Assembly: GCA_026394565.1 (NCBI GenBank)
Contig: JAPKYA010000076.1
Coordinates: forward strand, 1-35,899
DNA: 35,899 nt
Source: Methanothrix sp.
GTDB taxonomy: Archaea > Halobacteriota > Methanosarcinia > Methanotrichales > Methanotrichaceae
Direction: 5' to 3'
The notes beneath the pieces were generated by a model that had not been told where the DNA came from, did no database searches, and saw only the letters and a list, made by a program, of their open reading frames with translations. A program made the translations under genes and the position numbers. This document shows, in pieces, positions 3,460 through 22,208 of this stretch (positions within the stretch are counted from its first letter, which is position 1; the number at the start of each line of letters is the position of its first letter).

Positions 3460-3466
3460 CTGGACC

Positions 3467-4387
3467 TCAGAACGCTATTGGCTTTATAGCTATGCCGGTA
3501 GCTGCTGCCAATCCTTCAATTGGAAAATCGGCCCCTTCTTTGCAGAACTTAATCCTGCCGTCCACACAAATCTCAATATCCTTGATTGAGCCTTTCTCAG
3601 CAGCAAGTTTCTTGACCAGCTCAGATATTTCAAGCTGGTAATCTGTGGTGTCACGAATATTCTCATGGGGCATCTCGGTTACCAGTTTCAGCATCTTATC
3701 CAGATCCCCGATGTGATAATTCTCTTTGCTGTAATTCACCTTAAGGAGCAACCTGGGAACCTGTCCTGCTTTGGATCTGGAAATCAGGCTCTTGGTTCCA
3801 TTCCAAGTGCCTTCCAGCAAGAGCATTAAATCATCCTCGGTAAGATGAGTGTGTTTGGCAGCATTTTCGTTTATGATGCCATAAAAGGAGATAAGCGAAT
3901 AAGGCAGAAAGTCCTCTTCTCTAAACGTTGCCTGCTTAGAACCCTCCTTCGAGGCAAAGGCTCCTGTTCCTTTAATATGCATCATGGTAACACGATGAAG
4001 CGACCGGCCCATCTTGAACTGCACTGGACCGGTATAAGTTATCGAGTCTTCTTTGAGCGGAATAACTCCGCCGAAGAGACGCACATCGATGCATTCGTTC
4101 AAAATCCGCTCTGCTTTATCCTCGAAGTCCTTGGCTCGTTTTTTCCCATCTTGGATGTAGCCATTTTGGGTATCATAAATGATCTCCCTTACAAATATCT
4201 CTTGACCCTTGAAATTGTGGAGATAATCTCTGATAGTTCTCTTCAGCCTAACATCTGTAACGAGATTTACTCCGGTCTCTTCATCGATTCTGGGCTTGTT
4301 CTCATCCATGGGATCGCCGTTAGGATTTCCATCTCTTATGTCGTAAATGAAAAGAATCTCAGATCTATTCTTGATGGTTTCACTCAT
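3467..4387 (-). CDS. cas7: Cascade backbone subunit Cas7 (Csh2 family)
   Basis: The repeated backbone subunit that coats the crRNA spacer. The N-terminal signature RSEILFIYDIRDGNPNGDP followed by PRIDEETG and TDVRLKRTIRDYL is characteristic of the Csh2/Csd2 Cas7 family of type I-B and I-C systems. About 306 residues. Two ATGs lie at 4393 and 4387. GGAGG ends only 1 nt before the first but 7 nt before the second, so ATG 4387 is the better start. The cas8b stop lies at 4390-4392, so the genes abut. Confidence 0.94.
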   Translation of the reverse strand: MSETIKNRSEILFIYDIRDGNPNGDPMDENKPRIDEETGVNLVTDVRLKRTIRDYLHNFKGQEIFVREIIYDTQNGYIQDGKKRAKDFEDKAERILNECIDVRLFGGVIPLKEDSITYTGPVQFKMGRSLHRVTMMHIKGTGAFASKEGSKQATFREEDFLPYSLISFYGIINENAAKHTHLTEDDLMLLLEGTWNGTKSLISRSKAGQVPRLLLKVNYSKENYHIGDLDKMLKLVTEMPHENIRDTTDYQLEISELVKKLAAEKGSIKDIEICVDGRIKFCKEGADFPIEGLAAATGIAIKPIAF

Positions 4388-4389
4388 TT

Positions 4390-6273
4390 TCATGCCTCCC
4401 CAACAATTATTTGCTCTTCTTCTTTTGCATGCTTGAACAATTTATGCATATCCATTCCTAAGACGAAATAGAAGCTCAGCTCATCATCCACCTCTTTCCA
4501 TTTAAGTCCTGCCAAAACGAAGTGATTCGCAATGAGCGATTCCAGATCCCTGTAGTAATTTTTCTGGTACTCTTCCAGCTTATTCTGAATTTCCGGAAGG
4601 AGCCTCTTGATCAGTGCTTCATTCATATTCAAGCCATGCAATTTATTGCGGAATGGAGTTGCCTTTTTGTCCATCCACTGTATGTTAAGGAGCTTCTGAG
4701 TCAATACCCCTTCCAAGAAGGTTGCCTTCTTAGAATCACTATTGAAAAACGCCTTGTTTGCTTCGAAGAACCTTTCAATACGTTGCTCTAATGGGAGACT
4801 ATCGAGCTCTTCGATGCGAAGAACCTTATTGCCCTGTTCATTCATGTCTTTCATCTCCGCTTTCTTTGCTTTGAAAAGATTAAGCTCCTCAATATAGTGC
4901 AAAAGCAAGAACCCATTCAAGGTAGTGATATTAGTAGGATAACCCTTGATGAATGCCTCTTTCACTTTGCTCATTATAAAATATATCAGCAAATGGTAGC
5001 TGATTTGATCTCCAACAAATATCTTGTCTACTATTTCCAAGAATATTTTGTCGAAGGTTCTATTTTTGGACTCGGACGGGAAGAATCGTCTTAATACTCC
5101 AAAATTGAACTCCAAGTGGTTCTTTTCCTTCTGTGCTTCACTAAAAATCGAATCGTTGTAAATTATAAATCTCTCATCGACCTTTCCTTTGGCATTGAAA
5201 AGCGCCCTCAATCTTGATGGAAGAATCCCATCTATTAAAAGCAGGATTCTGTAAGACGATTGTTCCTTTTTATAAAATATCAGGCTATTGCTGAAGAAAT
5301 CTTTTTGATCTTGGACAAACTCAAGAACCTCTTCTTCATCAGAAGTTATTCTGTTCTTGACTTCACGATTTATTTTTATCTTTCTTTTTTGATCTTTCTT
5401 GCCAAGGATGTCCAGGATCTCTTCAAGAACCTCTTTTTTGTCTCCTGCCAGGGTCAATTTTGGCACGAGGAGATATCTGAAGCCATAGAAGCCAAAGTCG
5501 AGGTTTTCCTCGATGTATTTCTTTCCAACTTCCAGGCGCGTGGCACAATCGAAGCATACTGGTGTATTCTTCCAGGATTCATTGACCTTAAAACCACCTG
5601 CAATAAATCCGGGCTTGTCAAAGGTGTGGAATGTCCAGGGAATTGCGAAGCCATAGACCTCATCTTTTGTCCCTTTGCAAACTGAACAAGCAGCCTCTTT
5701 TCCTAGTGATTCCCCTTGTGACTTCTTGAGATAATATTTATCCTTGCCTTTCCTGATCAAAATATTCTTGAAAACCTGCAGATTTCCAGGATAGCATATC
5801 TCCCCATCTCTCTCAATCCCCACTGTGATAATTGCATATTCATCGGATTTCTTTTGAGCAAATTTTTCTTCTAAATTAGCCAGTATCGTCTCTGCTTGAC
5901 CTTTTATGGCTCTGCACATTTTTTTGAGAGCATCTTTGTCTTCTATTGATATATCATAGCTATCATAGTTCTCAAACCATTTAATAAATCTGTTCTGGAA
6001 GGTTTTCTCCAGTTTCCCTGCTACCTTGCTCGTAGGTGTAGCATCTGTGCCATTCGGTGCACCCTTCTTGTAGAGATATATTTTGAAATCTTTAAACTCC
6101 TCACGTTCTACACGACTAAATGAGTACTCACCTTCAATTTCCTTCAAAACTACTATTAATACGAATTTATACTTGCCATTGCTATTCGGGTTCTCTAAAA
6201 AAGTAGAGAGCAAGTCATCTCCACCATAAGTCCTTTGAATGTAGTCCCCGATTCTACCTACTGCATCGATCAC
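4390..6273 (-). CDS. cas8b: Cascade large subunit Cas8b (Csh1 family)
   Basis: The large Cascade subunit, which recognises the PAM and recruits Cas3. The 627-residue length and the zinc-finger pattern (CSVC near residue 196 paired with CFDC near 241) fit the Csh1/TM1802 family. Its position as first gene before csh2-type cas7, cas5 and cas3 supports type I-B. Large subunits diverge fast, so the call rests partly on context. The start is GTG 6273 behind AAGGTGG; no ATG competes in frame. The promoter region upstream has a TATA-like ATATAAAG (6370-6385) and a clean 17-bp palindrome at 6303-6319. Confidence 0.88.
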   Translation of the reverse strand: MIDAVGRIGDYIQRTYGGDDLLSTFLENPNSNGKYKFVLIVVLKEIEGEYSFSRVEREEFKDFKIYLYKKGAPNGTDATPTSKVAGKLEKTFQNRFIKWFENYDSYDISIEDKDALKKMCRAIKGQAETILANLEEKFAQKKSDEYAIITVGIERDGEICYPGNLQVFKNILIRKGKDKYYLKKSQGESLGKEAACSVCKGTKDEVYGFAIPWTFHTFDKPGFIAGGFKVNESWKNTPVCFDCATRLEVGKKYIEENLDFGFYGFRYLLVPKLTLAGDKKEVLEEILDILGKKDQKRKIKINREVKNRITSDEEEVLEFVQDQKDFFSNSLIFYKKEQSSYRILLLIDGILPSRLRALFNAKGKVDERFIIYNDSIFSEAQKEKNHLEFNFGVLRRFFPSESKNRTFDKIFLEIVDKIFVGDQISYHLLIYFIMSKVKEAFIKGYPTNITTLNGFLLLHYIEELNLFKAKKAEMKDMNEQGNKVLRIEELDSLPLEQRIERFFEANKAFFNSDSKKATFLEGVLTQKLLNIQWMDKKATPFRNKLHGLNMNEALIKRLLPEIQNKLEEYQKNYYRDLESLIANHFVLAGLKWKEVDDELSFYFVLGMDMHKLFKHAKEEEQIIVGEA

Positions 6274-6302
6274 TCAACCACCTTACTTAATTATCTCATT
6301 TT

Positions 6303-6319
6303 CTTGTAACGTATACAAG
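6303..6319. promoter_or_regulatory. Palindrome upstream of cas8b, possible operator
   Basis: CTTGTAACGTATACAAG is a perfect 6-bp inverted repeat with a 5-bp centre (CTTGTA/TACAAG). It starts 30 bp upstream of the cas8b GTG, between the TATA-like element and the gene. The size and symmetry suit a dimeric winged-helix repressor. The binding protein is unknown. Confidence 0.45.
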
Positions 6320-6369
6320 GCTATTTATGATATCCTTAAACAATTTACGGACATTTCTGAGCTAAGGCA

Positions 6370-6385
6370 TAATCTTTATATCGAA
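6370..6385 (-). promoter_or_regulatory. TATA-like element for the cas8b-cas7-cas5-cas3 operon
   Basis: Read on the minus strand the segment is ATTCGATATAAAGATT, with GATATAAAG resembling an archaeal box A. It lies about 100 bp upstream of the cas8b start, leaving a leader that contains the 6303-6319 palindrome. This is a motif call only. Confidence 0.35.
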
Positions 6386-6430
6386 TCAAGACATACATTC
6401 CAATGCCCTAGAGTAATATTGCTTAGGAAA

Positions 6431-6505
6431 GGACGGGAGGGGAATCAGACCCCTGTAGTAACGCGGATGAAATCCGCGAATTCTATGCCATTGAATTACC
6501 CGTCC
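6431..6505 (-). tRNA. tRNA gene, anticodon UUC (Glu), atypical body
   Basis: A 75-nt cloverleaf: acceptor GGACGGG/CCCGTCC with seven perfect pairs, D arm ATTC/GAAT with GG in the loop, and anticodon stem CGCGG/CCGCG with loop ATTTCAT, giving anticodon TTC. T stem is AGGGG/CCCCT. Oddities: the T loop reads TCTGATT instead of the usual TTCRANY; the variable region is 7 nt; the discriminator base is U. The GTAATTCAATGG segment and U73 resemble bacterial tRNA-Gly more than archaeal tRNA-Glu. CCA is not encoded. It lies 22 bp downstream of the UAA tRNA on the same strand. Confidence 0.8.
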
Positions 6506-6527
6506 CACTTAGGCAATGGGTGATAAC

Positions 6528-6614
6528 GCGGCGGGTGGGATTCGAACCCACGTGGACCTGCCCGGACCAAACGGCTCTTAAGGCCATCGCATTTGGCCAC
6601 TCTGCCACCGCCGC
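6528..6614 (-). tRNA. tRNA-Leu (anticodon UAA) with G73
   Basis: An 87-nt class II tRNA: acceptor GCGGCGG/CCGCCGC, short D stem GCA/TGC, anticodon stem ATGGC/GCCGT with loop CTTAAGA, giving anticodon TAA. A long variable arm precedes the canonical T arm GTGGG-TTCGAAT-CCCAC. The base after the acceptor stem is G. Archaeal leucine tRNAs normally carry A73, whereas archaeal serine tRNAs carry G73. The identity is therefore Leu by anticodon, but the discriminator is Ser-like. Confidence 0.88.
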
Positions 6615-6790
6615 ACATTTATCTATTATATATTGTCCCAGATTTTCGCCAGCTTATTGGGGATTTCTTAATCTTAGTAGACATAAAGAAGTCTAACTGG
6701 TTATTAAATCTTTCCCCATGTTGTAGCTTAATTAATATTTAAATTATTTTAAATATCAGCGAATAAGCATGCAACCTAAATAACGATAGA

Positions 6791-6798
6791 TTTATAAA
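6791..6798 (+). promoter_or_regulatory. TATA box upstream of the degenerate repeat pair
   Basis: TTTATAAA on the plus strand, centred about 25 bp before position 6820. That spacing would start a transcript at the first of two CRISPR-like repeats (6815-6844). A second A/T-rich candidate lies at 6737-6758. Confidence 0.4.
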
Positions 6799-6814
6799 TG
6801 AAGATGACCTTTGT

Positions 6815-6917
6815 AAATTTACTCCAATAAAACAAGGATTGAAATGTAGCGATAACAAAGTCAAACTACATTTAAATAAATATACTTTAAAAAGTTCCAA
6901 AAAAACAAGGATTGATA
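6815..6917 (+). CRISPR. Two degenerate CRISPR repeats (relic array or CreA-like RNA)
   Basis: Two related segments, 6821-6844 and 6894-6917, agree at 20 of 24 positions at a 73-bp period. Both contain AAACAAGGATTGA and the first ends ATTGAAAT, matching the 8-nt 5' handle typical of type I-B crRNAs. With about 30-bp repeats the spacer is about 43 bp. The spacer starts an inverted repeat with the handle: AAATGTAG (6842-6849) and CTACATTT (6866-6873). The pair lies between the adaptation and interference genes, ends 8 bp from the cas4 stop and is transcribed, if at all, opposite to the cas genes. No intact array is visible. Confidence 0.5.
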
Positions 6918-6925
6918 CATTAGCA

Positions 6926-7567
6926 TTAAACGCATATATTCCTGTACGTGCAGTCCACGCACCTGGCCTTCTGCTTCGTCCCATCGGGAAAGTATCCCCT
7001 CTGAATTATCATCAGTATCTCGCGCACAATCTCCTTTGCCTTCTCATAATCTTTTTGCCGAAAGTCAATTTCCGCCACATAGTTGTTGCTCCTGGTGTAG
7101 CAGATGAAGCCCCGCTTCACATCCACCCCGAAGTGCTCCATAATGAGTATGCCGTAAAGAGCAGCTTGAAACTTGTGCGTCCTGTAAATGGTGTTTTTAA
7201 ACTCGGCATACTTGTAATCCAGAGGCGCTGCCGTTCCATCATCCAGAAAGAGAACCTCATCCACCTCTCCCTTGAAGTGGTACTTTTGCGAAGTCAGATA
7301 AACCGAGATCTCTTTTCCCGTGCAATTCAGCTTCTTTCTCACGTAATCCCGGTTCACCTTCTCCCGGATCTCGTGCAGCTCTCTGCCCTTCAAAACTTTG
7401 TAGCGCCGCTCCTCTCTCTGGGCGATGCCCAGGCAGTGCATGAAGAATATGAACCTGGGGCAGAACAGATATTCCAGCGCATCGGATACCGTGATGAAAA
7501 TCTCCTGCGCAGGTGCGGGCTCCTGCGCCTGCCCGCGCGCGGCCGCGATCTCAGTTTCCGTCTCCAT
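6926..7567 (-). CDS. cas4: CRISPR adaptation exonuclease Cas4
   Basis: A RecB-like Fe-S nuclease that trims prespacers and helps select PAM and orientation with Cas1-Cas2. Four cysteines for the cluster are in place: C36 (FCPRF) and C203, C206, C212 in CVDCTYRNIC at the C-terminus. Nuclease motifs GEVDEV, PLDYKY and QAALYG follow in the correct order. At 213 residues it is slightly long because of a roughly 20-residue Ala/Gln/Glu-rich N-terminal extension. ATG 7567 has TGAGGG 5-6 nt upstream, overlapping the cas2 stop. Confidence 0.93.
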   Translation of the reverse strand: METETEIAAARGQAQEPAPAQEIFITVSDALEYLFCPRFIFFMHCLGIAQREERRYKVLKGRELHEIREKVNRDYVRKKLNCTGKEISVYLTSQKYHFKGEVDEVLFLDDGTAAPLDYKYAEFKNTIYRTHKFQAALYGILIMEHFGVDVKRGFICYTRSNNYVAEIDFRQKDYEKAKEIVREILMIIQRGYFPDGTKQKARCVDCTYRNICV

Positions 7568-7574
7568 TTTGCCC

Positions 7575-7868
7575 TCAGAACACCTTGGTTAACATCATGC
7601 CCGCCACCAGCTCTCTGTCGAATCCCGCTCCGATCAGCTTGATCCGGTCATTGCAGTCCTCGCACATGGGAAAGACGTAGACTGAATCCGATTCCTCAAT
7701 GACCGCCTCGCACTCCAGGGCCAGGGAGTCGGACTGATTCCTGTTCAGATCGCCCAGAAAGGCGCTCTTCTGCACCCGGAATAGGCCGTAGTTCTTGCAT
7801 AGCTTCGCCACCCGGCTTCGAATTTTGTTCTCGGATATGTCGTAAATGACCCAGACCAGCATCAACAA
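7575..7868 (-). CDS. cas2: CRISPR adaptation protein Cas2
   Basis: A 97-residue ferredoxin-fold protein that forms the central dimer of the Cas1-Cas2 integrase. The first strand VWVIYDIS carries the conserved aspartate; GLFRVQKSAFLGDL and SVYVFPMCEDC complete the Cas2 pattern. ATG 7868 has GAGGT 5 nt upstream and is preferred over the second Met two codons later. It sits between cas1 (94-bp gap holding a dispersed repeat) and cas4 (7-bp gap). Confidence 0.93.
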   Translation of the reverse strand: MLMLVWVIYDISENKIRSRVAKLCKNYGLFRVQKSAFLGDLNRNQSDSLALECEAVIEESDSVYVFPMCEDCNDRIKLIGAGFDRELVAGMMLTKVF

Positions 7869-7900
7869 CCTCGATTATTACTATTATTATTTCTGCTGAA

Positions 7901-7952
7901 CTTCGCGGCTTCGCGCCTTCGCGTGAAACCGGACCCTGTTGAATCTCACGCG
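7901..7952 (-). repeat. Dispersed intergenic repeat, copy in the cas1-cas2 gap
   Basis: Positions 7909-7952, read on the minus strand, match 18403-18446 at 40 of 44 positions. The 27 bp at 7901-7927 recur exactly at 19565-19591. The element is rich in CGCGAAG/CTTCGCG units and sits inside the adaptation operon without a coding frame. Confidence 0.75.
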
Positions 7953-7962
7953 AAGCATGGAT

Positions 7963-9078
7963 TCAATTAGGCCCGGCTGTACTGGCATTCTGATCCGCAT
8001 TGGGCTCTCTTGCCGGTGTTTCGCATGATTTGCTTTCTCGTTCTCCTCCGCCTTCTTCCTCTTCCATTTCCAGTATGTTCTGATCAAAGTCCTCCGGCAG
8101 CTCCTGGCCTGGTCGGATGAGAGAGTTGGCAATCCTGTGGCACTCCATCTGAATGGTGTTCCGGGTCTTGATATTTCGGCCCCGGTAGAGGATCGTCTCC
8201 TCGAAGTTCTTGTTGAGAGCCTCGATGAGCGCTGCCTTGCCGTCCTTGGAAAGGCCCATCCCCTGCTCCAGCGGCTCGAAGAACTCGTCCTTAATCATGC
8301 GCCTGCTGAAGAGATAGACCACCGTCTCATCCACGTAAATGCGGAACATCTCAATGATATCGAAGACCAGCGACATCTTGTTGTAAGAGTCGGTGTGCAA
8401 AAAGCCCACGTAGGGATCAAGGCCGGCGATGACGCAGCCCTTTTCCACCATCGAGTAGAGAACGCCGTATCCGTAGTTGAGCAGAGCATTGAACTCGTCT
8501 TTGGCCGGATTTCTGCTCCTTCCTCTGAACCGGTACTTTTCAGGCATGACTGAGGAGAGGGCATCAAAGTAGGCCCGCGCCGCCCTGCCCTCCAGGCCGA
8601 GCATGTCCTGCCGCCGGGCGTCTATGCTGCCCAAAAGCCTCTTCATCTGCTCTCTGGACTGCTCAATCTCCTCGATTAACCGGTCCAGATCCTCTCTTTT
8701 CTCCTCTCTGGTCTTCCTCAATTTGGTGAGCAGCAGAGTCTGGTTGTCCAGCTTCTTCAGGCCCCACTCTTTTGCTAAATTCAGGCCATCCGTTGTGTCG
8801 TAGATCTCAAGTTGCCTTCTGCGAATCATTGTGGTGCTGCCCAGCTTCGGATGCCATACCCTGCCGTAGGGCTCCCCGTAGGAATCGAGAAAAACTATAT
8901 CGATGTTGTTGTCCACGGCCAGCTTGACGGCATCTGTGGTGATGTATGCAGACGTTGTAATTAAAATGCTATTGACTTTGCTCACCGCCACCTCAAAGCT
9001 TTTATCCTCTCTCTTTACCAGAAAGCAGTTCCCGCTCTTGCGAAGATATGCCCCATAGCTGTTGATCACAAGCTGCAC
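7963..9078 (-). CDS. cas1: CRISPR integrase Cas1 (type I-B)
   Basis: A metal-dependent integrase that inserts spacers at the leader end of arrays. The catalytic residues are visible: Glu near 162 in GLEGRAAR, His near 227 in GFLHTDSY and Asp near 240 in SLVFDIIEMFR. The family-typical start VQLVINSYGAYL begins at GTG 9078, preceded by AGAGGT at 6-nt spacing, so it is chosen over ATG 9108 ten codons upstream. The last 35-40 residues are an acidic, low-complexity tail (EMEEEEGGGERE) beyond the normal Cas1 end; their role is unknown. Confidence 0.94.
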   Translation of the reverse strand: MQLVINSYGAYLRKSGNCFLVKREDKSFEVAVSKVNSILITTSAYITTDAVKLAVDNNIDIVFLDSYGEPYGRVWHPKLGSTTMIRRRQLEIYDTTDGLNLAKEWGLKKLDNQTLLLTKLRKTREEKREDLDRLIEEIEQSREQMKRLLGSIDARRQDMLGLEGRAARAYFDALSSVMPEKYRFRGRSRNPAKDEFNALLNYGYGVLYSMVEKGCVIAGLDPYVGFLHTDSYNKMSLVFDIIEMFRIYVDETVVYLFSRRMIKDEFFEPLEQGMGLSKDGKAALIEALNKNFEETILYRGRNIKTRNTIQMECHRIANSLIRPGQELPEDFDQNILEMEEEEGGGERESKSCETPAREPNADQNASTAGPN

Positions 9079-9289
9079 AGCATTACCTCTAGCCTCTAGC
9101 AATTCCAATGCCAGTTAGTTCTGCAACTCCTCAGGTTTAATATCTTTGTACATGCTCAATAGAGTTACAAGATTCAGCAATACCTTTCTAAGCAAAAAGA
9201 ATCGTATCTAGAAATCCTTATATATGAATAAATAGATTGATTACAGTGTTTAATCGAATGAGAAGAAATCACAAAGAGAGGCTGTGCTG
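9079..9289. promoter_or_regulatory. Divergent promoter region of cas1 and the arsR operon
   Basis: On the plus strand CCTTATATATG (9216-9226) is a good archaeal TATA box, about 25-30 bp before a likely start near 9245. Downstream, ATTGATTA (9237-9244) and TTAATCGAAT (9250-9259) form an imperfect inverted repeat, a plausible ArsR operator between TATA box and gene. On the minus strand an AAAGATATTAAACC segment may serve cas1. Only motifs support this. Confidence 0.45.
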
Positions 9290-9745
9290 ATGCCGGATAA
9301 AGAACTGCCAATGATTTCCTGCAAGAGATTGCCAGGGAGAGAGAAAGAATCCTGCCGGGACAATAGCACTTGCTGTGAGGCAGAAAAAACTCTGGCCAGG
9401 CTTTATGGAGATAGAAGCATAGCCAGAGAGCGATGTCTCCAGGTATGCACTCAAGTAAAAAGGATAGACGAAGAGAAACTGACTGCCGAGATCAAGATCT
9501 TTAAGGCTGTAGCCGATGTGACCCGCCTCAAGATTCTCAAACTTCTGAGCGGAGGTGAGCTTTGCGTTTGTGAGATAATGCTGGCTCTGAAAAGACCGCA
9601 GTCCTCCATATCACATAATCTCTCCATACTTGAGAACGCAGGCTTGGTAAAAGAGAGAAAAGAGGGAAAATGGTGTCGCTACAGGATCTCGGATGGGGCA
9701 GTTATTGATATGGTCAGCTTAGCCGGGCGGCTTAAGAGAAAATGA
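9290..9745 (+). CDS. ArsR-family transcriptional repressor with Cys-rich N-terminus
   Basis: A winged-helix regulator of the ArsR/SmtB family. The core AVADVTRLKILKLLSGGELCVCEIMLALKRPQSS includes ELCVCE, the cysteine pair that binds arsenite or other thiophilic metals in ArsR. The roughly 60-residue N-terminal extension carries several more cysteines (at SCK, ESC, TCCE, RCLQVC), unusual for the family and suggestive of extra metal or redox sensing. ATG 9290 has GAGAGG at 8-nt spacing and is preferred to GTG 9284. It leads an operon with an Fe-S/HTH protein and DsrEFH, which it probably represses. Confidence 0.85.
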   Translation: MPDKELPMISCKRLPGREKESCRDNSTCCEAEKTLARLYGDRSIARERCLQVCTQVKRIDEEKLTAEIKIFKAVADVTRLKILKLLSGGELCVCEIMLALKRPQSSISHNLSILENAGLVKERKEGKWCRYRISDGAVIDMVSLAGRLKRK

Positions 9746-11670: not shown

Positions 11671-11688
11671 CTTTCTTTTTGGCTTTTC
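11666..11688 (+). terminator. Oligo-T terminator of the DsrEFH operon
   Basis: Three T-runs follow the dsrH stop (TTTT, TTTCTTTTT, TTTT) with no clear stem before them, the usual look of archaeal intrinsic termination. Confidence 0.5.
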
Positions 11689-11856
11689 GCTAATTCCAGT
11701 GGCTAACCTTAGGTACAATGGTTTTCCAGTTGTTTGTTAGTCGCTCTGTGACCTCTGTGAACTCTGTGGTTGAAAGACGTCGTTAGCCACTGGTTATATC
11801 CAAATGGCTGACGATACTACTACCACAGAGTCACAGAGCGCACTGAGGACTTACAG
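11681..11856. repeat. Structured intergenic repeat element, copy 1
   Basis: Positions 11681-11750 match 19379-19449 across about 70 bp with few differences. Within this copy CCAGTGGCTAAC (11696-11707) and GTTAGCCACTGG (11782-11793) are a perfect 12-bp inverted repeat. CGCTCTGTGAC (11742-11752) and CTCTGTGGT pair with ACCACAGAGTCACAGAGCG (11822-11840). The unit could fold into a long stem and resembles a non-coding MITE- or REP-like element. No gene is visible in it. Confidence 0.7.
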
Positions 11857-12946: not shown

Positions 12947-13843
12947 TTATGGCTCTTCGCTTCCCCTGGCGGCCTTCTGGAGTGCGGCCTGACCTGCAAT
13001 TACGTATGCTTTTATAAGAAAGAAGGCGAAATTGGCCCGGCCAATTAAGATGGGTGCTTCCCCAAGCCTTTTCAGGACTGCATTCTCCACCGGCGGGCTC
13101 CTGGGATTGATCTCCAGCAAATCAAGCTCGCTTCCCTTTTGCCAGAAGCAATCCAGGCACTCTTCCAGAGGCCTGACCTTCCCATCGATGAGGGAGACGG
13201 AGGCGGAGACTGATCCGGGAGAGCCTTCATTCTCTTGCCCGGCCCCGGCAGAGCGAAAACTGCGCAGGGCCTCGACGATTTCTTCTTTGGATTTGCCCCG
13301 AAGCTTGAAGATGAGAAAAGGATCATTGTCGAACTGCTCAGCTAATAGATAATAGACTGCTGCTATGTGCTTGCAGGGGTTGGACCAATCCGGACAGGAG
13401 CAATCCGTTTTCAGGTCCGCTCCATCTTCGGGAAAGAGAGATATGCCGCAGTCGGAAAATGCTTCCTCGATGTTCTGCGGCATCTCTCCGGAGAGCAGGC
13501 GGGCTGAGAATACCGCTTTAGAGGCCATGGCGGCTATTGCTTTCTCCCAATCTTCCGGGGAGAGGGGCGACAGTTTTATCGATACATCATAGGGCTTTGG
13601 ATATGAGCCCTGGACACGAGCCTTCACAACTCCCGGCTTGACATCGATGGAGATGACCTGGCCTTTTCGGGCATAGGATTTTCCTCGGGTGAGCCTGGCG
13701 CCCATATCGAAGGACTCGAGAACGCCGACAAAGCGTTTTGACCACCAGGTCTCTCCGATGGAGCCGCGCTTGCTCTTGGCCTTCAGGCCGTTCTTGACCT
13801 CCTTTGGCGAAGTCTTCTCGTAGTAACTCCAATAAGGGCTCAT
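12947..13843 (-). CDS. SWIM zinc-finger protein, partner of SNF2 helicase
   Basis: A 298-residue protein with the SWIM motif CxC-x6-CxH at C148, C150, C157, H159 (CSCPDWSNPCKHI). The N-terminus (MSPYWSYYEKTSPKEVKNG, GETWWSKRFVGVLES, GRSY-like KSYARKGQV) matches the protein family usually encoded next to bacterial and archaeal SNF2 helicases. SWIM domains bind DNA or protein. The start overlaps the helicase stop by four bases (ATGA), which argues for a complex. The C-terminal third is less conserved. The biological role of the pair is not settled. Confidence 0.85.
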   Translation of the reverse strand: MSPYWSYYEKTSPKEVKNGLKAKSKRGSIGETWWSKRFVGVLESFDMGARLTRGKSYARKGQVISIDVKPGVVKARVQGSYPKPYDVSIKLSPLSPEDWEKAIAAMASKAVFSARLLSGEMPQNIEEAFSDCGISLFPEDGADLKTDCSCPDWSNPCKHIAAVYYLLAEQFDNDPFLIFKLRGKSKEEIVEALRSFRSAGAGQENEGSPGSVSASVSLIDGKVRPLEECLDCFWQKGSELDLLEINPRSPPVENAVLKRLGEAPILIGRANFAFFLIKAYVIAGQAALQKAARGSEEP

Positions 13844-16800
13844 TTATCATCATCCCCGTTGCCTACGGCATCGCGCCGCAAGGTAAGCATATCCTTTAGC
13901 GCCTCATTGGAGAGCTCAGTCAGCCAGGCCTCACCAGTCCCTATTACCGAATCCGCCAGGGCCTTTTTCTGCTCTATCATTTCGTCTATTTGCTCTTCCA
14001 GAGTGCCGAGACACACGAACTTGTGGACAAAGACGTTCTTCTTCTGCCCAATACGAAAGGCGCGATCGGTAGCCTGATTTTCCACGGCAGGGTTCCACCA
14101 TCGATCAAAGTGAAAGACGTGGCTGGCTGCTGTCAGGTTGAGGCCGAAGCCGCCCGCCTTCAGAGATAATATAAATATAGGCGATCCTCCCGCCTGGAAC
14201 CTCTGGATCATATCATCCCTCTGCTTTCTGGTGGTTCCTCCATGCAAGAACAGGGCCTCGACTCCCAGCTTCTCCTGAAGATGGTGTTTAAGCATGGCTC
14301 CCATTCCGGCAAACTGGGTGAAGATCAAGGCTCTATCGCCTCCTGCCAGGACCTCATAGAGCATCTCCTCCAGGCGAGAGAGCTTTCCGGAACGGCCGGC
14401 AAGAGCGCTTCCATCCTGCAGGAAGAGGGATGGATGGTTGCAGATCTGCTTCAGCTTGGTCAGAGCGGCCAGGATTTGACCTCTGCGCTCAATGCCTTCC
14501 AGCGATTCTATGCGGCCGAGCATCTCCTCCACCACGGCTGCATAAAGCGATGCCTGCTCCGCGGTGAGGTTGTAGTTGACCCGCATCTCCATCTTCTCGG
14601 GCAGATCCTGGATGACGGTTGGATCGGTCTTGAGCCGGCGCAGGACAAAAGGCTGAATTATGGAGCGAAGAGCCTCGGAGCGGCTCTTATTTTTGTATTT
14701 TTCAATCGGCAGTACGAAATTCTTGCGGAAGGATGCCGCGGATCCCAGGTAGCCGGGATTGAGAAAGTCCATGATGGACCATAGCTCGGATAGCCTGTTC
14801 TCGACAGGGGTTCCGGTGAGGGCGATCTTCTGGCCTGACTGGAGCCTTTTTATTGACTGGGTCTGCCGGGCGGCCTGGTTCTTGATGTTCTGCGCCTCAT
14901 CCAGGATCACATGGCTCCAGGAGACAGCAGACAAATGCTCCTCGTCCCTCTGGGCAAGAGCGTAAGTGGTGATGACCACGTCTTTGCCTGCGGCCTCCTG
15001 CAGGAAGCCGGGACCTGTGAGCCTATTTTGGCCGTGATGCACCAGGACTCTCAGGCTGGGAGCAAAACGCTCCAGCTCCTTTTGCCAGTTGCCGGCCACA
15101 GACATGGGGCAGATGAGAAGAGCCGGCTGGAGGGGGTCTTTGGACCTTTCTTCTTTCTTTCCTTCATGCTCCCTTTCGCGCTCTCGTTCATGCTCCCGCT
15201 CACGCAGGAGAAAAGCAATCAGCTCCACGGTCTTTCCCAGGCCCATATCGTCCGCCAGACAGGCACCCAGACCTATTCGGTGCAGGTACTCCAGCCAGGA
15301 GACACCCCGCAACTGATAAGGCCGCAATGTGCCCTGTAACTCCTGGGGAGGCGGGACATCCTCCAGACTGCCGGGATGGGATAGGGCTTTAAGCATTTGC
15401 TCAATTTGGCCCTCCGCCTGAACGCCGAGAATGGGTAGGGTTGAATCAACACCCAGCAGCTCCTGGCCGGGCAGACTCTCGCCTGGCAAGCTCTGGCCGG
15501 GAAGGTTCAGGCCAAGGCGCAGAGCCTCTGCAAAGGTCATCTCTCGATCCCTGTTCTTCCGGAAGAAGGCAATGGCGGCCTCGATCTCTGTAGAGCGAAG
15601 CTCCATCCATTCGCCTCTTATCTGAATGAGGGGTACCTTGAGACGGGCCAGCTCTGCGAACTCAGTCTCGGTGAGGATATCACCGCCCAGGGAGAGCTGC
15701 CAGTCGTAATTGATCAGGGTGTCGAGCCCGAAGAAGGCCGGACCTACTTGGCCCTCCTTTTTTACCGCATCTTTGAGCTGCAGCTTTATGCCCAGGCGAG
15801 AGCCGGGCTTCTCCCACCAGGAGGGCAGCAGCATCCCGAAACCATTCTGCTCCAGGAGGGGAGCCGACTCCCGCAGGAAGGAATAAGCCTCCTCGGTTTG
15901 CATCTCCAGGCCGGTGGGGCGGGCGCTCTCCAGGCACTTCTCCATCAGAGGGACTACCCTGGATGCTTTGCCAAGGTCTGCCAGGAGCTGCTCCTGTGGA
16001 TTTTTCAGCCTCTTCTTGAGGAAAGTGAGTGCGCGAGATTTGGTCTGCCATACCTCTTTTGCAGGAACAAGCAGGCTGCGGTCATCTTTTGCCTGGAGGA
16101 AGAAGGCAAGCCTCCAGGACACATCTTCTGCGCCCGGGGCTTCCAGGCGAAAGCAGGTGCGAAAGGGTACGTCCTCAATTTCCGGATGGATTTGTGAGAC
16201 CCAGGAATTCAACTTTAGAGAGAAGGAGACCAGCTCCGGGGCAGAGGCAGACAGGCCCGACTCTTTGCTGGTGAGGGCAGAGAGGAATTGGTCAGGCAGA
16301 GGAACTTTCTTGGGCATTCTGCCACGCCTGGCGGGTTGGAGGCTGACCCCATCCAGGCTGCTGCGAACAAGTGTGTTCACAGCTATGTTCACGAAGCTAT
16401 GGACCAAGCGGGAGGGGGCGGCCATCGGTCCCGGCTGCAGGCCAAGACAACTGGGCGGCAGGGACCGGATGAAGATATTCAGGCGCTCTTGATCCGGCTC
16501 GTCGATCACCGCCTTCCAGAGGGCTCTGCCTTTGCGGATGGCGGGCACAAAAAGCTCACGCGATACTAGCTCCAGAGAAAAGAGGGCCAGCTCCGACCAG
16601 AAGAGCAGGGAGTCGGCATAAGCAGTGCCCTGGGGAGGATGGGTGGGCAATTTCAGCAGAAGATCGAGGGCGGAGCCTGCCTCCAGGCCCAGGGCCGGGA
16701 CAAAGTAGGCACCCAGTCGAGATGGTTTTTCAGATATGTAGTCCTCGCGCAAGAGCCAGGGGGACGGAAGAGGTCCGGAAATACCTGCGGGAAGGCGGAG

Positions 16801-17013
16801 AGCCGGCGCTTCCTCCAAGCAGTCGTCGCCGCTCCAGTGGAAGGTCTCTTGAAGAAGGTCTTTGAGCGCTATGCCGGGCAGGGCGAAGGGATGAGACGAA
16901 GGTGGCTGTTTCTTGCGATTGCCTGATTTGTCGGCAGAGGAGAGGGGCAGAGCTGAGGATTCGGCCCAGATGTAGAATGTTTCCGTGTCCCAGATGGAGT
17001 GTAAGACCTGCAT
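13840..17013 (-). CDS. SNF2-family DNA translocase/helicase
   Basis: About 1057 residues. The N-terminal half is an accessory region with few recognisable motifs. The SNF2 ATPase occupies about 560-1050: RPYQLRGVSWLEYL, Walker A DDMGLGKT near 595, DEAQ near 710, LTGTPVENRLSELWSI, and C-terminal lobe motifs GGFGLNLTAA and QATDRAFRIGQ. Two low-complexity inserts stand out: LPGQSLPGESLPGQEL near residue 525 and a REHERERE-rich stretch near 615, just after motif I. ATG 17013 is preferred to TTG 17031. Family members remodel DNA-protein complexes, including RNA polymerase recycling by RapA-like enzymes. It forms a two-gene operon with the SWIM protein. Confidence 0.92.
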   Translation of the reverse strand: MQVLHSIWDTETFYIWAESSALPLSSADKSGNRKKQPPSSHPFALPGIALKDLLQETFHWSGDDCLEEAPALRLPAGISGPLPSPWLLREDYISEKPSRLGAYFVPALGLEAGSALDLLLKLPTHPPQGTAYADSLLFWSELALFSLELVSRELFVPAIRKGRALWKAVIDEPDQERLNIFIRSLPPSCLGLQPGPMAAPSRLVHSFVNIAVNTLVRSSLDGVSLQPARRGRMPKKVPLPDQFLSALTSKESGLSASAPELVSFSLKLNSWVSQIHPEIEDVPFRTCFRLEAPGAEDVSWRLAFFLQAKDDRSLLVPAKEVWQTKSRALTFLKKRLKNPQEQLLADLGKASRVVPLMEKCLESARPTGLEMQTEEAYSFLRESAPLLEQNGFGMLLPSWWEKPGSRLGIKLQLKDAVKKEGQVGPAFFGLDTLINYDWQLSLGGDILTETEFAELARLKVPLIQIRGEWMELRSTEIEAAIAFFRKNRDREMTFAEALRLGLNLPGQSLPGESLPGQELLGVDSTLPILGVQAEGQIEQMLKALSHPGSLEDVPPPQELQGTLRPYQLRGVSWLEYLHRIGLGACLADDMGLGKTVELIAFLLREREHEREREREHEGKKEERSKDPLQPALLICPMSVAGNWQKELERFAPSLRVLVHHGQNRLTGPGFLQEAAGKDVVITTYALAQRDEEHLSAVSWSHVILDEAQNIKNQAARQTQSIKRLQSGQKIALTGTPVENRLSELWSIMDFLNPGYLGSAASFRKNFVLPIEKYKNKSRSEALRSIIQPFVLRRLKTDPTVIQDLPEKMEMRVNYNLTAEQASLYAAVVEEMLGRIESLEGIERRGQILAALTKLKQICNHPSLFLQDGSALAGRSGKLSRLEEMLYEVLAGGDRALIFTQFAGMGAMLKHHLQEKLGVEALFLHGGTTRKQRDDMIQRFQAGGSPIFILSLKAGGFGLNLTAASHVFHFDRWWNPAVENQATDRAFRIGQKKNVFVHKFVCLGTLEEQIDEMIEQKKALADSVIGTGEAWLTELSNEALKDMLTLRRDAVGNGDDDK

Positions 17014-17118
17014 GTATTCGAGCCTTCGCAAGCGATGTAATTGGCTTGATACTATTATTAGTATTTGTATTTAGTTGTAATTAAGACTGTGCTTTTTTTT
17101 AGGAGAGGGCAAAGGCTG

Positions 17119-17499
17119 CTATGCAGCATCGTCAGCAGTATTAGTAAGATCGTTCTCTGTTGCCCGGCATCTGAAGCTGATAGTATCGCCCATGTGGTAG
17201 TGCATCGTCAAGAGAAATGTGTCCTCTGATTCAAAGCCGAAAGTGCCAAAGCCGTTTACCAGATCAGTCTCGTCCCAGCCTTCAAAGGAGAAAATCAGCC
17301 TCAGGCTTTCTTTATCCTTTTCAAATCGGCCATCGATGTATCCATCCTGGACGCCGAACTGATAGCTTCCCGTCACCTCGTTTTTTTCGTCCACGTTTAT
17401 GAGAAGATGTGGATCAGGCGATAAGCTGAGATAATCGTCCGCCATGTCCACGGCCTCGATGACTTTCCATTTACCGGCAAATTCGCTTTCTGTAACCAT
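17119..17499 (-). CDS. Small uncharacterised beta-rich protein
   Basis: A 126-residue acidic protein: SEFAGKWKVIEAVDMADDYLSLS, GSYQFGVQDGYIDGRFE, and LIFSFEGWDETDLVNGFGTF. The alternating strands and the GKWKV opening resemble a family of small bacterial and archaeal proteins of unknown function with a lipocalin-like look. There is no signal peptide and no cysteine pattern apart from one CRA near the end. It stands alone between the helicase and the HTH gene. Function is unknown. Confidence 0.75.
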   Translation of the reverse strand: MVTESEFAGKWKVIEAVDMADDYLSLSPDPHLLINVDEKNEVTGSYQFGVQDGYIDGRFEKDKESLRLIFSFEGWDETDLVNGFGTFGFESEDTFLLTMHYHMGDTISFRCRATENDLTNTADDAA

Positions 17500-17603: not shown

Positions 17604-17990
17604 CTAAAGCAGTATCTTCCCGGTCAGAGTTATGCGCACCTCCTTCGTCTTGCCCCTGGGCACGGCATCCAGTGCCCCAAGCTCGGTTAGGCGGGCCACC
17701 TGGCGGGAGATGGTGCTCTCGGAGACAGAGAGGCGCTTTGCGATATCGGTAATAGTAGTAGGCTGGTTCTTGCTTATGTCCTTCAAAATCCTTTTTTGCC
17801 GGTCTTCCAGGATAGCGGTGATATTGGGCAGCGCGACCTCATGGAGGCTTCTTTCGATCTTCGTCCCACCGGCCACCAATCCCGCCGTCTTCGGGGCCAT
17901 AACAATCCGGCGCTCTTGGCCGTCCACCCCGGCCTCGTGCAGCTTTCCGCCCGCAATTCGCCTGCGCCCATCCGGCCGCTCCCGGACCAT
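17604..17990 (-). CDS. Winged-helix regulator fused to a fragment of AroA
   Basis: The C-terminal 70 residues form a winged helix: ILEDRQKRILKDISKNQ, TTITDIAKRLSVSESTISRQVARLTELGAL, then RITLTGKILL, as in MarR/ArsR-like regulators. The preceding 55-60 residues are clearly homologous to the end of EPSP synthase. VRERPDG, IAGGKL, RRIVMAPKTAGLVAGGTKIE align with residues 350-395 of the AroA encoded at 20946-22208 (IRERPDG, ITGGRL, HRIVMALTVAGFVAGGTRID). DNA similarity runs over about 170 bp. The conserved aspartate-histidine before RIVMA is lost, so no catalysis is expected. The frame is open to TTG 18062; ATG 17990 is used here, without a clear RBS, so the start is uncertain. Confidence 0.65.
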   Translation of the reverse strand: MVRERPDGRRRIAGGKLHEAGVDGQERRIVMAPKTAGLVAGGTKIERSLHEVALPNITAILEDRQKRILKDISKNQPTTITDIAKRLSVSESTISRQVARLTELGALDAVPRGKTKEVRITLTGKILL

Positions 17991-18078
17991 TGCGATGCGG
18001 GCCAGGCTCCACGGGCCTGGCACAACCTTTGGCCAGATCTTAAAGGCTCCCTTGCAGAGCAAATTGATTGGCCGCCAG

Positions 18079-18086
18079 TTATATTT
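18079..18086 (+). promoter_or_regulatory. TATA box for the hicB-like gene at 18102
   Basis: TTATATTT lies 20-29 bp before the two candidate ATGs (18102 and 18111). No Shine-Dalgarno is present, so the message is probably leaderless. Confidence 0.45.
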
Positions 18087-18101
18087 CGTTATCTGTAGTT
18101 T

Positions 18102-18359
18102 ATGCCTACTATGAGGACTCTCAGTTATCGAATCACTCTTAGAAAAGAGCCTGAAGGTGGTTATACCGTGCAGGTCCCGGCCCTTCCCGGATGCGTCACC
18201 TACGGGAAGACTGTGGAAGAGGCCATTGAGATGTCCAGGGATGCAATTTCGGGTTATGTGGAGAGCCTCATTGAAGACGGCGAGCCCGTTCCCGTGGAGG
18301 ACGAACTCATCGAGTGCAGAGTGACTGTGGAGGCTCGTGACTCGTACAGCGAGGCTTAA
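18102..18359 (+). CDS. HicB-like antitoxin (solo)
   Basis: An 85-residue HicB-family protein: SYRITLRKEPEGGYTVQVPALPGCVTYGKTVEEAIEMSRDAISGYVESLIEDGEP. It is a clear relative of the protein at 37-291, sharing the GYTV-x-VPxLPGC and TVEEA blocks. No intact hicA is adjacent. A hicA-like remnant lies 810 bp downstream on the same strand at 19170-19328, beyond a divergently oriented PIN-toxin module. It may act alone as a small regulator or be left over from a broken hicAB pair. ATG 18111 is an alternative start. Confidence 0.85.
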   Translation: MPTMRTLSYRITLRKEPEGGYTVQVPALPGCVTYGKTVEEAIEMSRDAISGYVESLIEDGEPVPVEDELIECRVTVEARDSYSEA

Positions 18360-18402
18360 TTAAGGCCATTCATGGTTGTCTTCTTCGCGCCGATCAAGGC
18401 TC

Positions 18403-18446
18403 CGCGTGAGATTCAACAGGGTACGGTTCCACGCCAAGACGCGAAG
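18403..18446 (+). repeat. Dispersed intergenic repeat, second copy
   Basis: It matches the reverse complement of 7909-7952 at 40 of 44 positions, beginning CGCGTGAGATTCAACAGGGT. It ends 3 bp before the stop codon of the PIN toxin gene. Confidence 0.75.
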
Positions 18447-18449
18447 CCA

Positions 18450-18899
18450 TTAGAACTCTACTACTTCCAGAAAGTCAACTCTTCTAAAGTCCCGATCGAA
18501 GGTTGCGATCTTCAAAATCTCGTTGCATAAGCAGGTTAAAGCTATTAGCGCGTCATATGGCAGAAGCCTGAATTTTAGCATGGTCTCCCGCCAATGGTTC
18601 ATATCATCATTGACTGGCACGAGGGAAATGCGTCTTGCATCGATGAAGCGGTATACTGCATCGATCTCTTTTTCAAATGGCCCATAGCCGTTATCAACGA
18701 TGAACCTCTTGAATGAAGTATGGTTTTTCGTTCCATAGCGCTCTTCGCAAAGGTCCCGAACTGACACAAGAATCAGTTCATGTATGACTGTAGATGATGT
18801 GACAAGTTTGTGATTCGGATCAAAAAATCTTCTGGCAGAGTTAGAAAATTTTGTGTCAAAGAAGGCATTATAAAATACATTAGTATCAATAAATATCAC
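18450..18899 (-). CDS. PIN-domain toxin (VapC-like ribonuclease)
   Basis: A 149-residue PIN-domain protein with the acidic residues of a VapC RNase: D5 in FIDTNV, E41 in VIHEL, D116 in LLPYDALIAL, and D135/D137 in ATFDRDF. Such toxins cut tRNA or rRNA when freed from their antitoxin. The start overlaps the stop of the upstream DUF104 antitoxin gene by four bases (ATGA), the normal arrangement of a two-gene toxin-antitoxin operon. All catalytic positions are kept, so it is probably functional. Confidence 0.88.
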   Translation of the reverse strand: MIFIDTNVFYNAFFDTKFSNSARRFFDPNHKLVTSSTVIHELILVSVRDLCEERYGTKNHTSFKRFIVDNGYGPFEKEIDAVYRFIDARRISLVPVNDDMNHWRETMLKFRLLPYDALIALTCLCNEILKIATFDRDFRRVDFLEVVEF

Positions 18900-19087
18900 A
18901 GATAGACCTCGCCCTCAAGCTCTTCTAGCCTCTCTGCTGAAGCTTTGCCAAACATGCCGTAGTATTTCGAAAGATCTACCTTTTCGATTTTGATCTTTAG
19001 CTTGGTGCCTTCCTCTAGCTTCACATTTTCCATCGGTTTGAAGACGCCGCCTTCGTATACACATTCAATGGTCTCACTGGCACTCAT
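18896..19087 (-). CDS. DUF104 (AF2212-like) antitoxin
   Basis: A 63-residue protein: ETIECVYEGGVFKPMENVKLEEGTKLKIKIE, the strand-rich DUF104/AF2212 domain found in archaeal antitoxins paired with PIN toxins, then a helical tail (FGKASAERLEELEGEVYL) likely to bind the toxin. ATG 19087 has AAGGAG at 8-nt spacing and is preferred to TTG 19093. It forms an operon with the PIN protein. Confidence 0.88.
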   Translation of the reverse strand: MSASETIECVYEGGVFKPMENVKLEEGTKLKIKIEKVDLSKYYGMFGKASAERLEELEGEVYL

Positions 19088-19169
19088 GCTCAAGTCTCCT
19101 TCTTCGTGTAGAATCTATATATTTCAACTTCTTGCTATTCAATCTTCTCCCCTGAACACAGCTCCTTCA

Positions 19170-19328
19170 AGATCCTTTGTCCGACAACCTCATTATATCT
19201 TCGCGAATGCTGAGACTAAGAGACGGGTCACTGTTCCTTTCCACAGCCAGGATGTAGCCAGAGGGACCCTTCTCCAGATTCTGAAGGATGCCGGAATCAG
19301 CAGAGAAGAGCTGCAGGATCTTCTCTAA
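19170..19328 (+). pseudogene. hicA toxin remnant
   Basis: The frame reads FVRQPHYIF, RRVTVPFHSQDVARGTLLQILKDAGISREELQDLL, the second half of a HicA mRNA interferase. In intact HicA the segment reads VRQ-x-GSH; here two residues are missing around the histidine. The first helix and strand (about 20-25 residues) are not found in any frame upstream. It therefore looks like a decayed 5'-truncated hicA. It lies on the same strand as the solo hicB at 18102, with the PIN toxin-antitoxin pair between them. Confidence 0.7.
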
Positions 19329-19670
19329 TTTCCGTGAATCTTGAAAGCATCAAAGCGTCATCGGTTAAGGCGGAAATCGGCTTTTCGCTATTTCCAGTGG
19401 CTAACCTCAGGTTATTATGGTTTTCCAGTTGTTAGTTAGGCGCTCTGTGCGTACTCTGCAGAGTGCACGGAGGACTCACAGAGAACTCAAATAATCCATT
19501 ACCAACAAAAAACAGCGAGGAACTGGAAACCGGTGTGGCAAGAATTGTCCTTCTCTCATCGGGACTTCGCGGCTTCGCGCCTTCGCGTGAACAGGTATGT
19601 CGTGCGAATAAGCCATGATCGACGCCCTCAAACACTATTCTGCGATGAAGCTCTCCAGCCCCTTTCGCCT
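19329..19670. repeat. Non-coding repeat-rich gap
   Basis: A 342-bp stretch without a convincing gene. Positions 19379-19449 are the second copy of the element at 11681-11750. ACTCTGCAGAGT (19453-19464) is a perfect palindrome following it. Positions 19565-19591 repeat exactly the 27 bp at 7901-7927 (CTTCGCGGCTTCGCGCC and on). A short minus-strand frame crosses the area but it is built from these repeats. Confidence 0.7.
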
Positions 19671-20945: not shown

Positions 20946-22208
20946 TTACTCCACGCCCACCCTCGCCCCCAATCCAGCCATCTGCCCGAAGAATCCCGGA
21001 TAGGAGACATCCACCGCCTCCGCCGTATCGATCCTTGTCCCACCGGCCACAAATCCCGCCACCGTCAGGGCCATCACAATCCTGTGGTCGTGCCAGCCGT
21101 GCACCTTAGCTGGCCGGAGCCTGCCGCCAGTGATCTCCAGCCCGTCCGGCCTCTCCCGGATGTCCACGCCCATTTTGGCCAGCTCCACGGCCATGGCATG
21201 CAGCCGGTCCGTCTCCTTGTGGCGCACGTGCTCGGCATTGACCACGGTCGTCTTGCCTTGGGCCACTGCGCCCAGAACGGCGATGGTGGGCACCAGATCC
21301 GGAGTGCGGCCGGCATCCACCTCCACTCCCACCAGATCGCCGCCCTTGATGCGGAGGTCCCCTTTTTCCTTATCCCAGGAGACCTTGGCGCCCATGCGGC
21401 TCAGAATGTCGATGATTGCCGAGTCGCCCTGCCTGGAGGGCAGGACCCCTTTGACAGTGACCTCGCTGCCCGTGACCGCAGCCGCAGCCAGCGGGTAGGA
21501 GGCAGAGGAGAAGTCTCCGGGAATGGTGTAGCTCTTCATGCCATAGCTCTGCCCGCCCGGCACAAAGAACTCCTGCCGCTGTGCCTGCACCCGCACGCCT
21601 GCGTCGGCGAGCATGTCCAGGGTGATCTCGGCATAGGGGCGCGACTTCAGCTCGCCCTCGATTACTATCTTCGTATCCGCTTCCGCCAGCGGCGCGGCGA
21701 TGAGCAGTGCGGATAGAAACTGAGAGCTGACACCGCCGTTTAGATGGGCCGTGCCGCCCCGCATCTTTCCCTTGATCACCAGGGGAGCCTTGCCGTTGTT
21801 ACGGATGGAAAAGGCGTTTGCGCCAAGCTCTGAGAGCGTGCTCAGAAGAGGGCCGTTGGGCCGGGTGCGGATGGAGGCATCGCCCGTGAGTACAGCCCCG
21901 TCGGTCAGCGCCGCCACAGCCGAGCAGAAACGCAGTGTGGTGCCCGAGTTGAGGACGTTGATGACATCCTCCGGAGTCTGGGGCCTGTCGGATACGCCGG
22001 TGATAAACACTCCGTCGTTAAGTGAGATCTTGGCTCCAAAGGCCTCGCTGGCTGAGACTGTGGCCCTGGTGTCTGCGGAGAGGAGGGGCCGCTTTACGGT
22101 TCCACCTGGACCTAAGGAAGTTATGAGGATAGCGCGGTGGGTGTAGCTTTTAGAGGGCGGGGCATAGACCTCACCGGAGAGAGAAGAGCGCTCGACTGAC
22201 GCAATCAT
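20946..22208 (-). CDS. aroA: 3-phosphoshikimate 1-carboxyvinyltransferase (EPSP synthase)
   Basis: Catalyses phosphoenolpyruvate + shikimate-3-phosphate to EPSP, step six of the shikimate pathway, in the cytoplasm. Landmarks: PPSKSYTHRAIL (18-28) with the phosphate-binding Lys20; LNSGTTLRF near 87; SSQFLSALL; the KETDRL segment; and DHRIVMAL near 373. Length (420) is normal. The ATG at 22208 has no Shine-Dalgarno; a TTATACTT TATA-like element is about 25-30 bp upstream, so it is likely leaderless. A diverged copy of its last third is fused to an HTH gene at 17604-18020. Confidence 0.95.
   Translation of the reverse strand: MIASVERSSLSGEVYAPPSKSYTHRAILITSLGPGGTVKRPLLSADTRATVSASEAFGAKISLNDGVFITGVSDRPQTPEDVINVLNSGTTLRFCSAVAALTDGAVLTGDASIRTRPNGPLLSTLSELGANAFSIRNNGKAPLVIKGKMRGGTAHLNGGVSSQFLSALLIAAPLAEADTKIVIEGELKSRPYAEITLDMLADAGVRVQAQRQEFFVPGGQSYGMKSYTIPGDFSSASYPLAAAAVTGSEVTVKGVLPSRQGDSAIIDILSRMGAKVSWDKEKGDLRIKGGDLVGVEVDAGRTPDLVPTIAVLGAVAQGKTTVVNAEHVRHKETDRLHAMAVELAKMGVDIRERPDGLEITGGRLRPAKVHGWHDHRIVMALTVAGFVAGGTRIDTAEAVDVSYPGFFGQMAGLGARVGVE

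Follow-up and report, generated by a model that had tools for sequence, protein, structure and literature searches.

The DNA analysed here, a contig of 35,899 nt from a Methanothrix sp. draft genome (124 contigs, 79% complete) that we refer to as the window, carries a type I-B cas operon in the order cas3-cas5-cas7-cas8b-cas4-cas2-cas1 at positions 297-9108, followed by an SNF2-type helicase gene, toxin-antitoxin genes and an intact aroA gene (Table 1). The interval between cas8b and cas4 contains two 20-nt repeats, 73 bp apart (6823-6915), which are possibly the remains of a CRISPR array. Upstream of the helicase, a single reading frame, open throughout and without frame breaks, combines an aroA-like part (17854-18022) with a winged helix (wHTH). 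The first-pass annotation had placed this frame at 17604-18020; the frame is real, and it extends to 18062, with 18020 falling inside it.

Table 1. Features of the window around the fused frame, with the basis of each assignment
Feature	Position	Strand	Basis
cas1; adjoins csa3 in G009 and G017	7963..9108	-	Comparison with relatives
Other edge of turned block	9149..9179	.	cas1-side similarity of G009/G017 stops at 9148/9149; block similarity of G021/G009 stops at 9180/9179
SNF2/DUF3670 helicase, downstream neighbour of csa3 locus	13840..17031	-	Domain match and relatives' loci
Small conserved gene, after csa3 in G008	17119..17499	-	Relatives' loci
Fused ORF, 152 aa	17604..18062	-	TTG start, open reading frame
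Linker helix and winged helix of csa3 (3' end, codon 127 onwards of 210)	17604..17858	-	Identity to intact csa3
Junction ATCGA	17854..17858	.	Shared 5 bp in local aroA, two compared aroA' copies and the csa3 gene of three genomes
aroA' scrap, aroA nt about 1011-1181 of 1263	17854..18022	-	DNA similarity and tree
hicB upstream region, kept in sister copies	18023..18101	+	Comparison of aroA' copies
HicB-like antitoxin gene	18102..18359	+	PF15919, E 1.9e-14
PIN-domain gene	18450..18899	-	PF01850, E 6.6e-17
AF2212-like gene	18896..19093	-	PF01954, E 5.5e-21
hicA 3' remnant, codons 30-74	19191..19328	+	93% over 45 residues to HicA of G000:C71
Intact aroA, 420 aa	20946..22208	-	TIGR01356, 432 bits (cut-off 287)

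Local alignment of 17854-18022 with 21028-21198 of the intact aroA gene, both on the minus strand, gave a score of 65 (maximum of 19 in 200 shuffles) and a DNA identity of 72%, and residues 86-147 of the fused frame match HTH_11, HTH_24, MarR, HTH_27 and similar wHTH models of Pfam, which confirms that an aroA 3' fragment and an HTH are combined in one frame, as first proposed. Frame residues 20-72 resemble AroA residues 343-395, and the RERPDG, RIVMA and AGxVAGGT motifs named in that proposal are indeed shared in frame. The likeness to AroA, the EPSP synthase, is limited to these roughly 50 residues; the full two-domain enzyme is absent from the frame, where only about 53 of its 420 residues are found, and the piece differs from the enzyme in being a fragment without the Asp-His pair that precedes RIVMA. 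Differences between the window fragment and the local aroA are distributed over the three codon positions as 12/16/17.

Scraps of the aroA 3' end (aroA') form a dispersed family that includes this fragment; we examined ten copies in six genomes: the window copy and a second copy in the same genome (G000:C71), three in G021, two in G009 and one each in G020, G018 and G024. Similarity to aroA starts at nt 1009-1012 in seven of the ten, hicB lies within about 0.2 kb of six, and part of the hicB upstream region is found beside two more (the third G021 copy and that of G024). In a tree that includes 23 intact aroA sequences (22 genes, with the local aroA entered twice), the ten copies form one clade with a support of 99. 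Nineteen alignment columns have a state that is common to at least six of the ten copies and absent from intact aroA genes, and the window copy holds 15 of these states, including two 3-nt deletions. Over the aroA part only, the family alignment gave identities of 64-73% between the window copy and its sisters and of 56-70% with intact genes (66% with the local aroA), so that the aroA' copies are old and diverged. The scrap has been copied around several Methanothrix-type genomes, as seen at L069 (G021:C22), L066 (G009:C108), L067 (G020:C46) and L070 (G000:C71), often just upstream of the hicB toxin-antitoxin genes. A longer aroA 3' pseudogene on G020:C46 (L067:5268-5643), which is outside the ten copies, covers residues 288-419 with an internal break; it lies about 1.8 kb from a relative of the glyoxalase gene, in the same order as glyoxalase and aroA in the window, and G020 has another aroA on C70.

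None of the ten aroA' copies keeps the Asp-His pair, the first G021 copy having CAC at the place of the His codon. In seven copies the net length change between RERPDG and RIVMA is not divisible by three, and codon-position differences summed over the 21 pairs of seven copies are 283/311/311; two intact aroA genes gave 3/8/20. Such flat differences are typical of non-coding DNA. The loss of Asp-His, then, came down from the ancestor of the scrap and is not an adaptation of the fusion. The scrap is not an enzyme, since it is a fragment without the Asp-His pair in a largely frame-broken family. The first-pass annotation was right that the pair is lost, which is a trait of the whole family and not of the fusion; the one-base insertion that it placed at the 5' edge of the similarity likewise exists, about 16 nt inside that edge, and recurs in sister copies (the third G021 copy, the first G009 copy, G020 and G024).

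A search of the window's own genome with the fused frame returned a second place, a 210-aa gene on another contig (G000:C4). Its protein passes the NCBIfam Csa3 model TIGR01884 (69.8 bits, cut-off 60.2) as well as Pfam PF22662 (Csa3_N), and its only PDB matches are three sequences, all Csa3 (2wte, 6w11, 6wxq; E about 6e-6). The csa3 end in the window has 87% DNA identity to this gene over 254 nt, and frame residues 67-152 share 84% amino acid identity with its product and 88% with that of csa3 in G009. This region can be aligned gap-free with the C-terminal ends of 16 Csa3 proteins from the same genus and family. These matches identify the HTH part as the C-terminal end of Csa3, a CRISPR-associated regulator with CARF and wHTH domains. 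Its place in a cas locus, next to the type I-B operon, also agrees with Csa3. That the HTH might come from a family with no relation to its surroundings had been considered as well and was ruled out when the paralogue search gave Csa3. The window frame differs from Csa3 in that the N-terminal CARF half is missing: TIGR01884 covers only model positions 128-196 of 202 (28.3 bits against the cut-off of 60.2), Csa3_N is absent among the best 25 of 36 Pfam rows for the window, and tblastn of Csa3 over the window found nothing before residue 94, with residues 94-126 falling in the aroA part.

The AlphaFold model of the fused frame contains a complete wHTH with helices at residues 87-99, 104-111 and 115-127 and a two-strand wing, at moderate confidence (block-mean pLDDT of 62-85 over residues 81 to 140). 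For residues 1-66 the block means are 35-42, and the model shows no secondary structure there; this region has no alignment rows, so the low confidence is weak evidence. Foldseek searches with the model gave a single match with an E value up to 0.001, a MarR (9.5e-4); the best 50 of 1787 matches are mostly described as MarR/ArsR-type or similar regulators, and Csa3 is named in none of these 50.

We sought relatives of the frame in 60 genomes, the window's own (G000) counted in. Matches extending from residue 64/67 to 151/152 were found in G000, in 12 further genomes of the genus and in three of the family; the window aside, no row in this search spans the aroA-like part and passes residue 103. 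A scan of GTDB genomes, a set from which the window's own record is possibly absent, returned 11 loci, ten of them titled Methanothrix, Methanotrichaceae or uncultured archaeon and one a weak bacterial match, and no second case of the fusion. Eight of the 11 rows start at residue 44, within the aroA part; the same stretch on the G009 contig is CARF sequence, and we therefore took the extension to residue 44 as chance. Among viral contigs the pattern matched in 19 stretches, none of which encodes a relative of the fused frame, and a literature search over titles and the opening lines of abstracts found no published report of such a fusion.

In several genomes csa3 lies upstream of one of two genes, the SNF2 helicase or a DUF4346 gene. 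The helicase-linked copy is intact in G009 and G017; three others are 3' relics, of about 42 codons in G015, 27 in G021 and 84 in the window. Among 16 helicase genomes, csa3 or a relic occurs within the fetched helicase flank in only five and was not detected there in the other 11, G012 among them; the ancestral state is thus one that we infer. The DUF4346-linked copy is intact in the window's genome (that on C4), and G009 keeps only its codons 14-57 and 176-210. Going by these remains, G000 and G009 seem to have lost opposite csa3 copies, so that loss of the duplicated regulators would be reciprocal in these two related Methanothrix-type genomes. The window relic groups with the helicase-linked csa3 of G009 in the nucleotide tree, with a support of only 89. 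The csa3 genes of L006 (G007:C272) and L008 (G020:C45) have a common replaced start, and the usual first 17 codons are unmatched in either.

The cas1 and helicase genes are divergent in all four other genomes that have both close together on one contig (G009, G017, G012 and G005) and are on one strand in the window. Alignments with three of the four gave the order cas1, csa3, helicase for G009 and G017, and cas1, the small conserved gene, helicase for G012. On its csa3 side the turned block stops at 17858, which is the fusion point, and the G009 segment that holds the cas1-csa3 spacer and the first part of csa3 (L132:811-1647) has no match in the window by alignment. One simple inversion would be expected to leave hicB at the far end of the block; no such hicB was seen in G021 or G009, and this candidate was rejected, so that we claim only a reversed order and not one clean event. 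The place that csa3 occupies in G009 and G017 holds in the window an ArsR-type regulator gene (9284-9745), divergent from cas1, whose HTH weakly matches the Csa3 model (26 bits). Two direct copies of a sequence of about 70 bp, 94% alike and 7.7 kb apart, lie at 11681-11750 and 19379-19449, and a related form is present in G009 (L132) and G012 (L137).

We consider it likely, with a probability of about 0.8, that the fused frame is a relic of rearrangement in which a truncated csa3 was joined in frame, by chance, to an old aroA scrap. What we observed, and what this reading draws on, are the component parts and the way they are joined, a second csa3 that is intact, csa3 relics in relatives, the reversal of gene order, and broken frames among the sister aroA' copies. 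In the order of events that we infer, csa3 would have been present twice in an ancestor, next to cas1 and the SNF2 helicase in one place and next to the DUF4346 gene in the other; the SNF2-linked copy would have lost its 5' part, encoding the CARF domain, as the block from 9149/9180 to 17858 turned round relative to cas1, and its 3' end would then have joined at the 5-bp ATCGA to the aroA 3' scrap beside hicB. The fused product would be without function. Joining at a short shared sequence fits the junction, presumably through an end-joining mechanism. Deletion or inversion at short microhomology leaves gene remnants, and the window resembles such cases in its truncated paralogue, its 5-bp junction and the relics of differing length in relatives. 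Unlike them, the remnant here has stayed open through the chance agreement of its aroA and csa3 frames, for which the odds are one in three. With regard to signs of decay, the CARF domain is gone from the window csa3, and breaks occur only in sister aroA' copies (the seven of ten noted above), with none in the window frame. An eye-catching chimera in one frame can thus be the scar of a rearrangement.

To assess constraint on the wHTH codons, we fitted a two-ratio codon model to 14 of 17 csa3 sequences (three from other genera excluded) over 84 codons on a fixed tree, leaving out the first two window codons on the aroA side. Omega was 0.16 on the window branch and 0.15 in the background, the window branch including time before the truncation, which may account for much of it; fixing this branch at omega 1 worsened the fit by 2.58 lnL units. 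The window codons contain no stop and no frameshift. The window wHTH has 12, 14, 13 and 18 amino acid differences to G000:C4, G021, G024 and G017, where the intact G009 copy has 11, 11, 13 and 19, which suggests that change in the window wHTH is not clearly faster than in the intact copy. The nucleotide-tree tip of the window is 0.068 (3' part only), against 0.021 for G009. Constraint on a branch that includes pre-truncation time speaks for a relic of young age or for a function that has been kept.

The low omega, the unexceptional amino acid change and the complete wHTH of the structural model would all suit a working Csa3 without CARF domain, made either as a protein of about 98 aa consisting of the wHTH only, from ATG 17900, or in the 152-aa form. 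Transcription might start in the hicB intergenic region, and the protein, lacking ligand sensing, would bind cas promoters in competition with intact Csa3. Several in-frame start codons precede the wHTH (ATG 17990, ATG 17900, GTG 17876 and others). All of these lie within the aroA part, and after the junction (codon 69) the first ATG, GTG or TTG in frame is TTG 17786, codon 93, inside the wHTH, which speaks against the earlier suggestion that the true start follows the aroA part. We nevertheless regard a working protein as unlikely, given that the CARF domain is missing, that the tested branch reaches back before the truncation, that the relics of G021 and G015 are too short for a wHTH, that the genomes searched gave no second case of the fusion, and that inspection by eye revealed no ribosome-binding-like sequence before the ATG codons of the frame. 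Csa3 is a CARF-wHTH transcription factor; that of Saccharolobus is reported to bind cA4 via its CARF domain and to bind a promoter independently of cA4 (PMC8844856). A form without CARF would be blind to the cA4 signal. Similarly unlikely is the specific proposal of such a ligand-blind wHTH that controls the cas genes, either constitutively or by competing with intact Csa3, with possible expression from the divergent hicB promoter region; if true, this would link CRISPR control to a toxin-antitoxin locus.

An assembly artefact joining two unrelated pieces is very unlikely. The genome is a draft and the junction appears in no second genome, but the pieces share only 5 bp at the junction, and on both sides of it, aroA'-hicB and csa3-helicase, the sequence has matches in other genomes that extend to this point. 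Five bases are fewer than the usual assembler overlaps. Least probable of all, to the point of being scarcely credible, is the origin favoured in the first-pass annotation, namely a recent partial duplication of the aroA gene 3 kb away that was captured by a regulator, with the aroA part serving as a new ligand-sensing or dimerisation segment. The DNA identity to that gene seems to favour it, and the window copy is little closer to its sisters than to intact genes, so that identity alone is not clear. The clade test and the shared indels decide against a recent tandem duplication: the window copy groups with the nine other, dispersed copies by the indels and substitutions that they have in common, five other genomes hold members of the same old family, and most copies have the same start of similarity. 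Fast-decaying sequences may group by long branches; here, however, the copies also have indels and a hicB flank in common, which argues otherwise. A sensor or dimerisation role for the aroA part is not supported, in view of the net frame breaks and flat codon-position differences of the family and, weakly, of the unstructured N-terminal region of the AlphaFold model. The regulator is instead a Csa3 that has lost its CARF domain: CARF, not AroA, precedes the HTH in all 16 csa3 loci above relic size, and the aroA-derived codons look neutral.

On the far side of the fusion, the AF2212-like gene is probably the antitoxin of the adjoining PIN gene. The hicBA module (18102-19328) is split by the PIN/AF2212 pair, which separates hicB from the final 45 codons of hicA. 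As far as position 19191, the hicB-PIN-AF2212 stretch is found again in G021 and G018.
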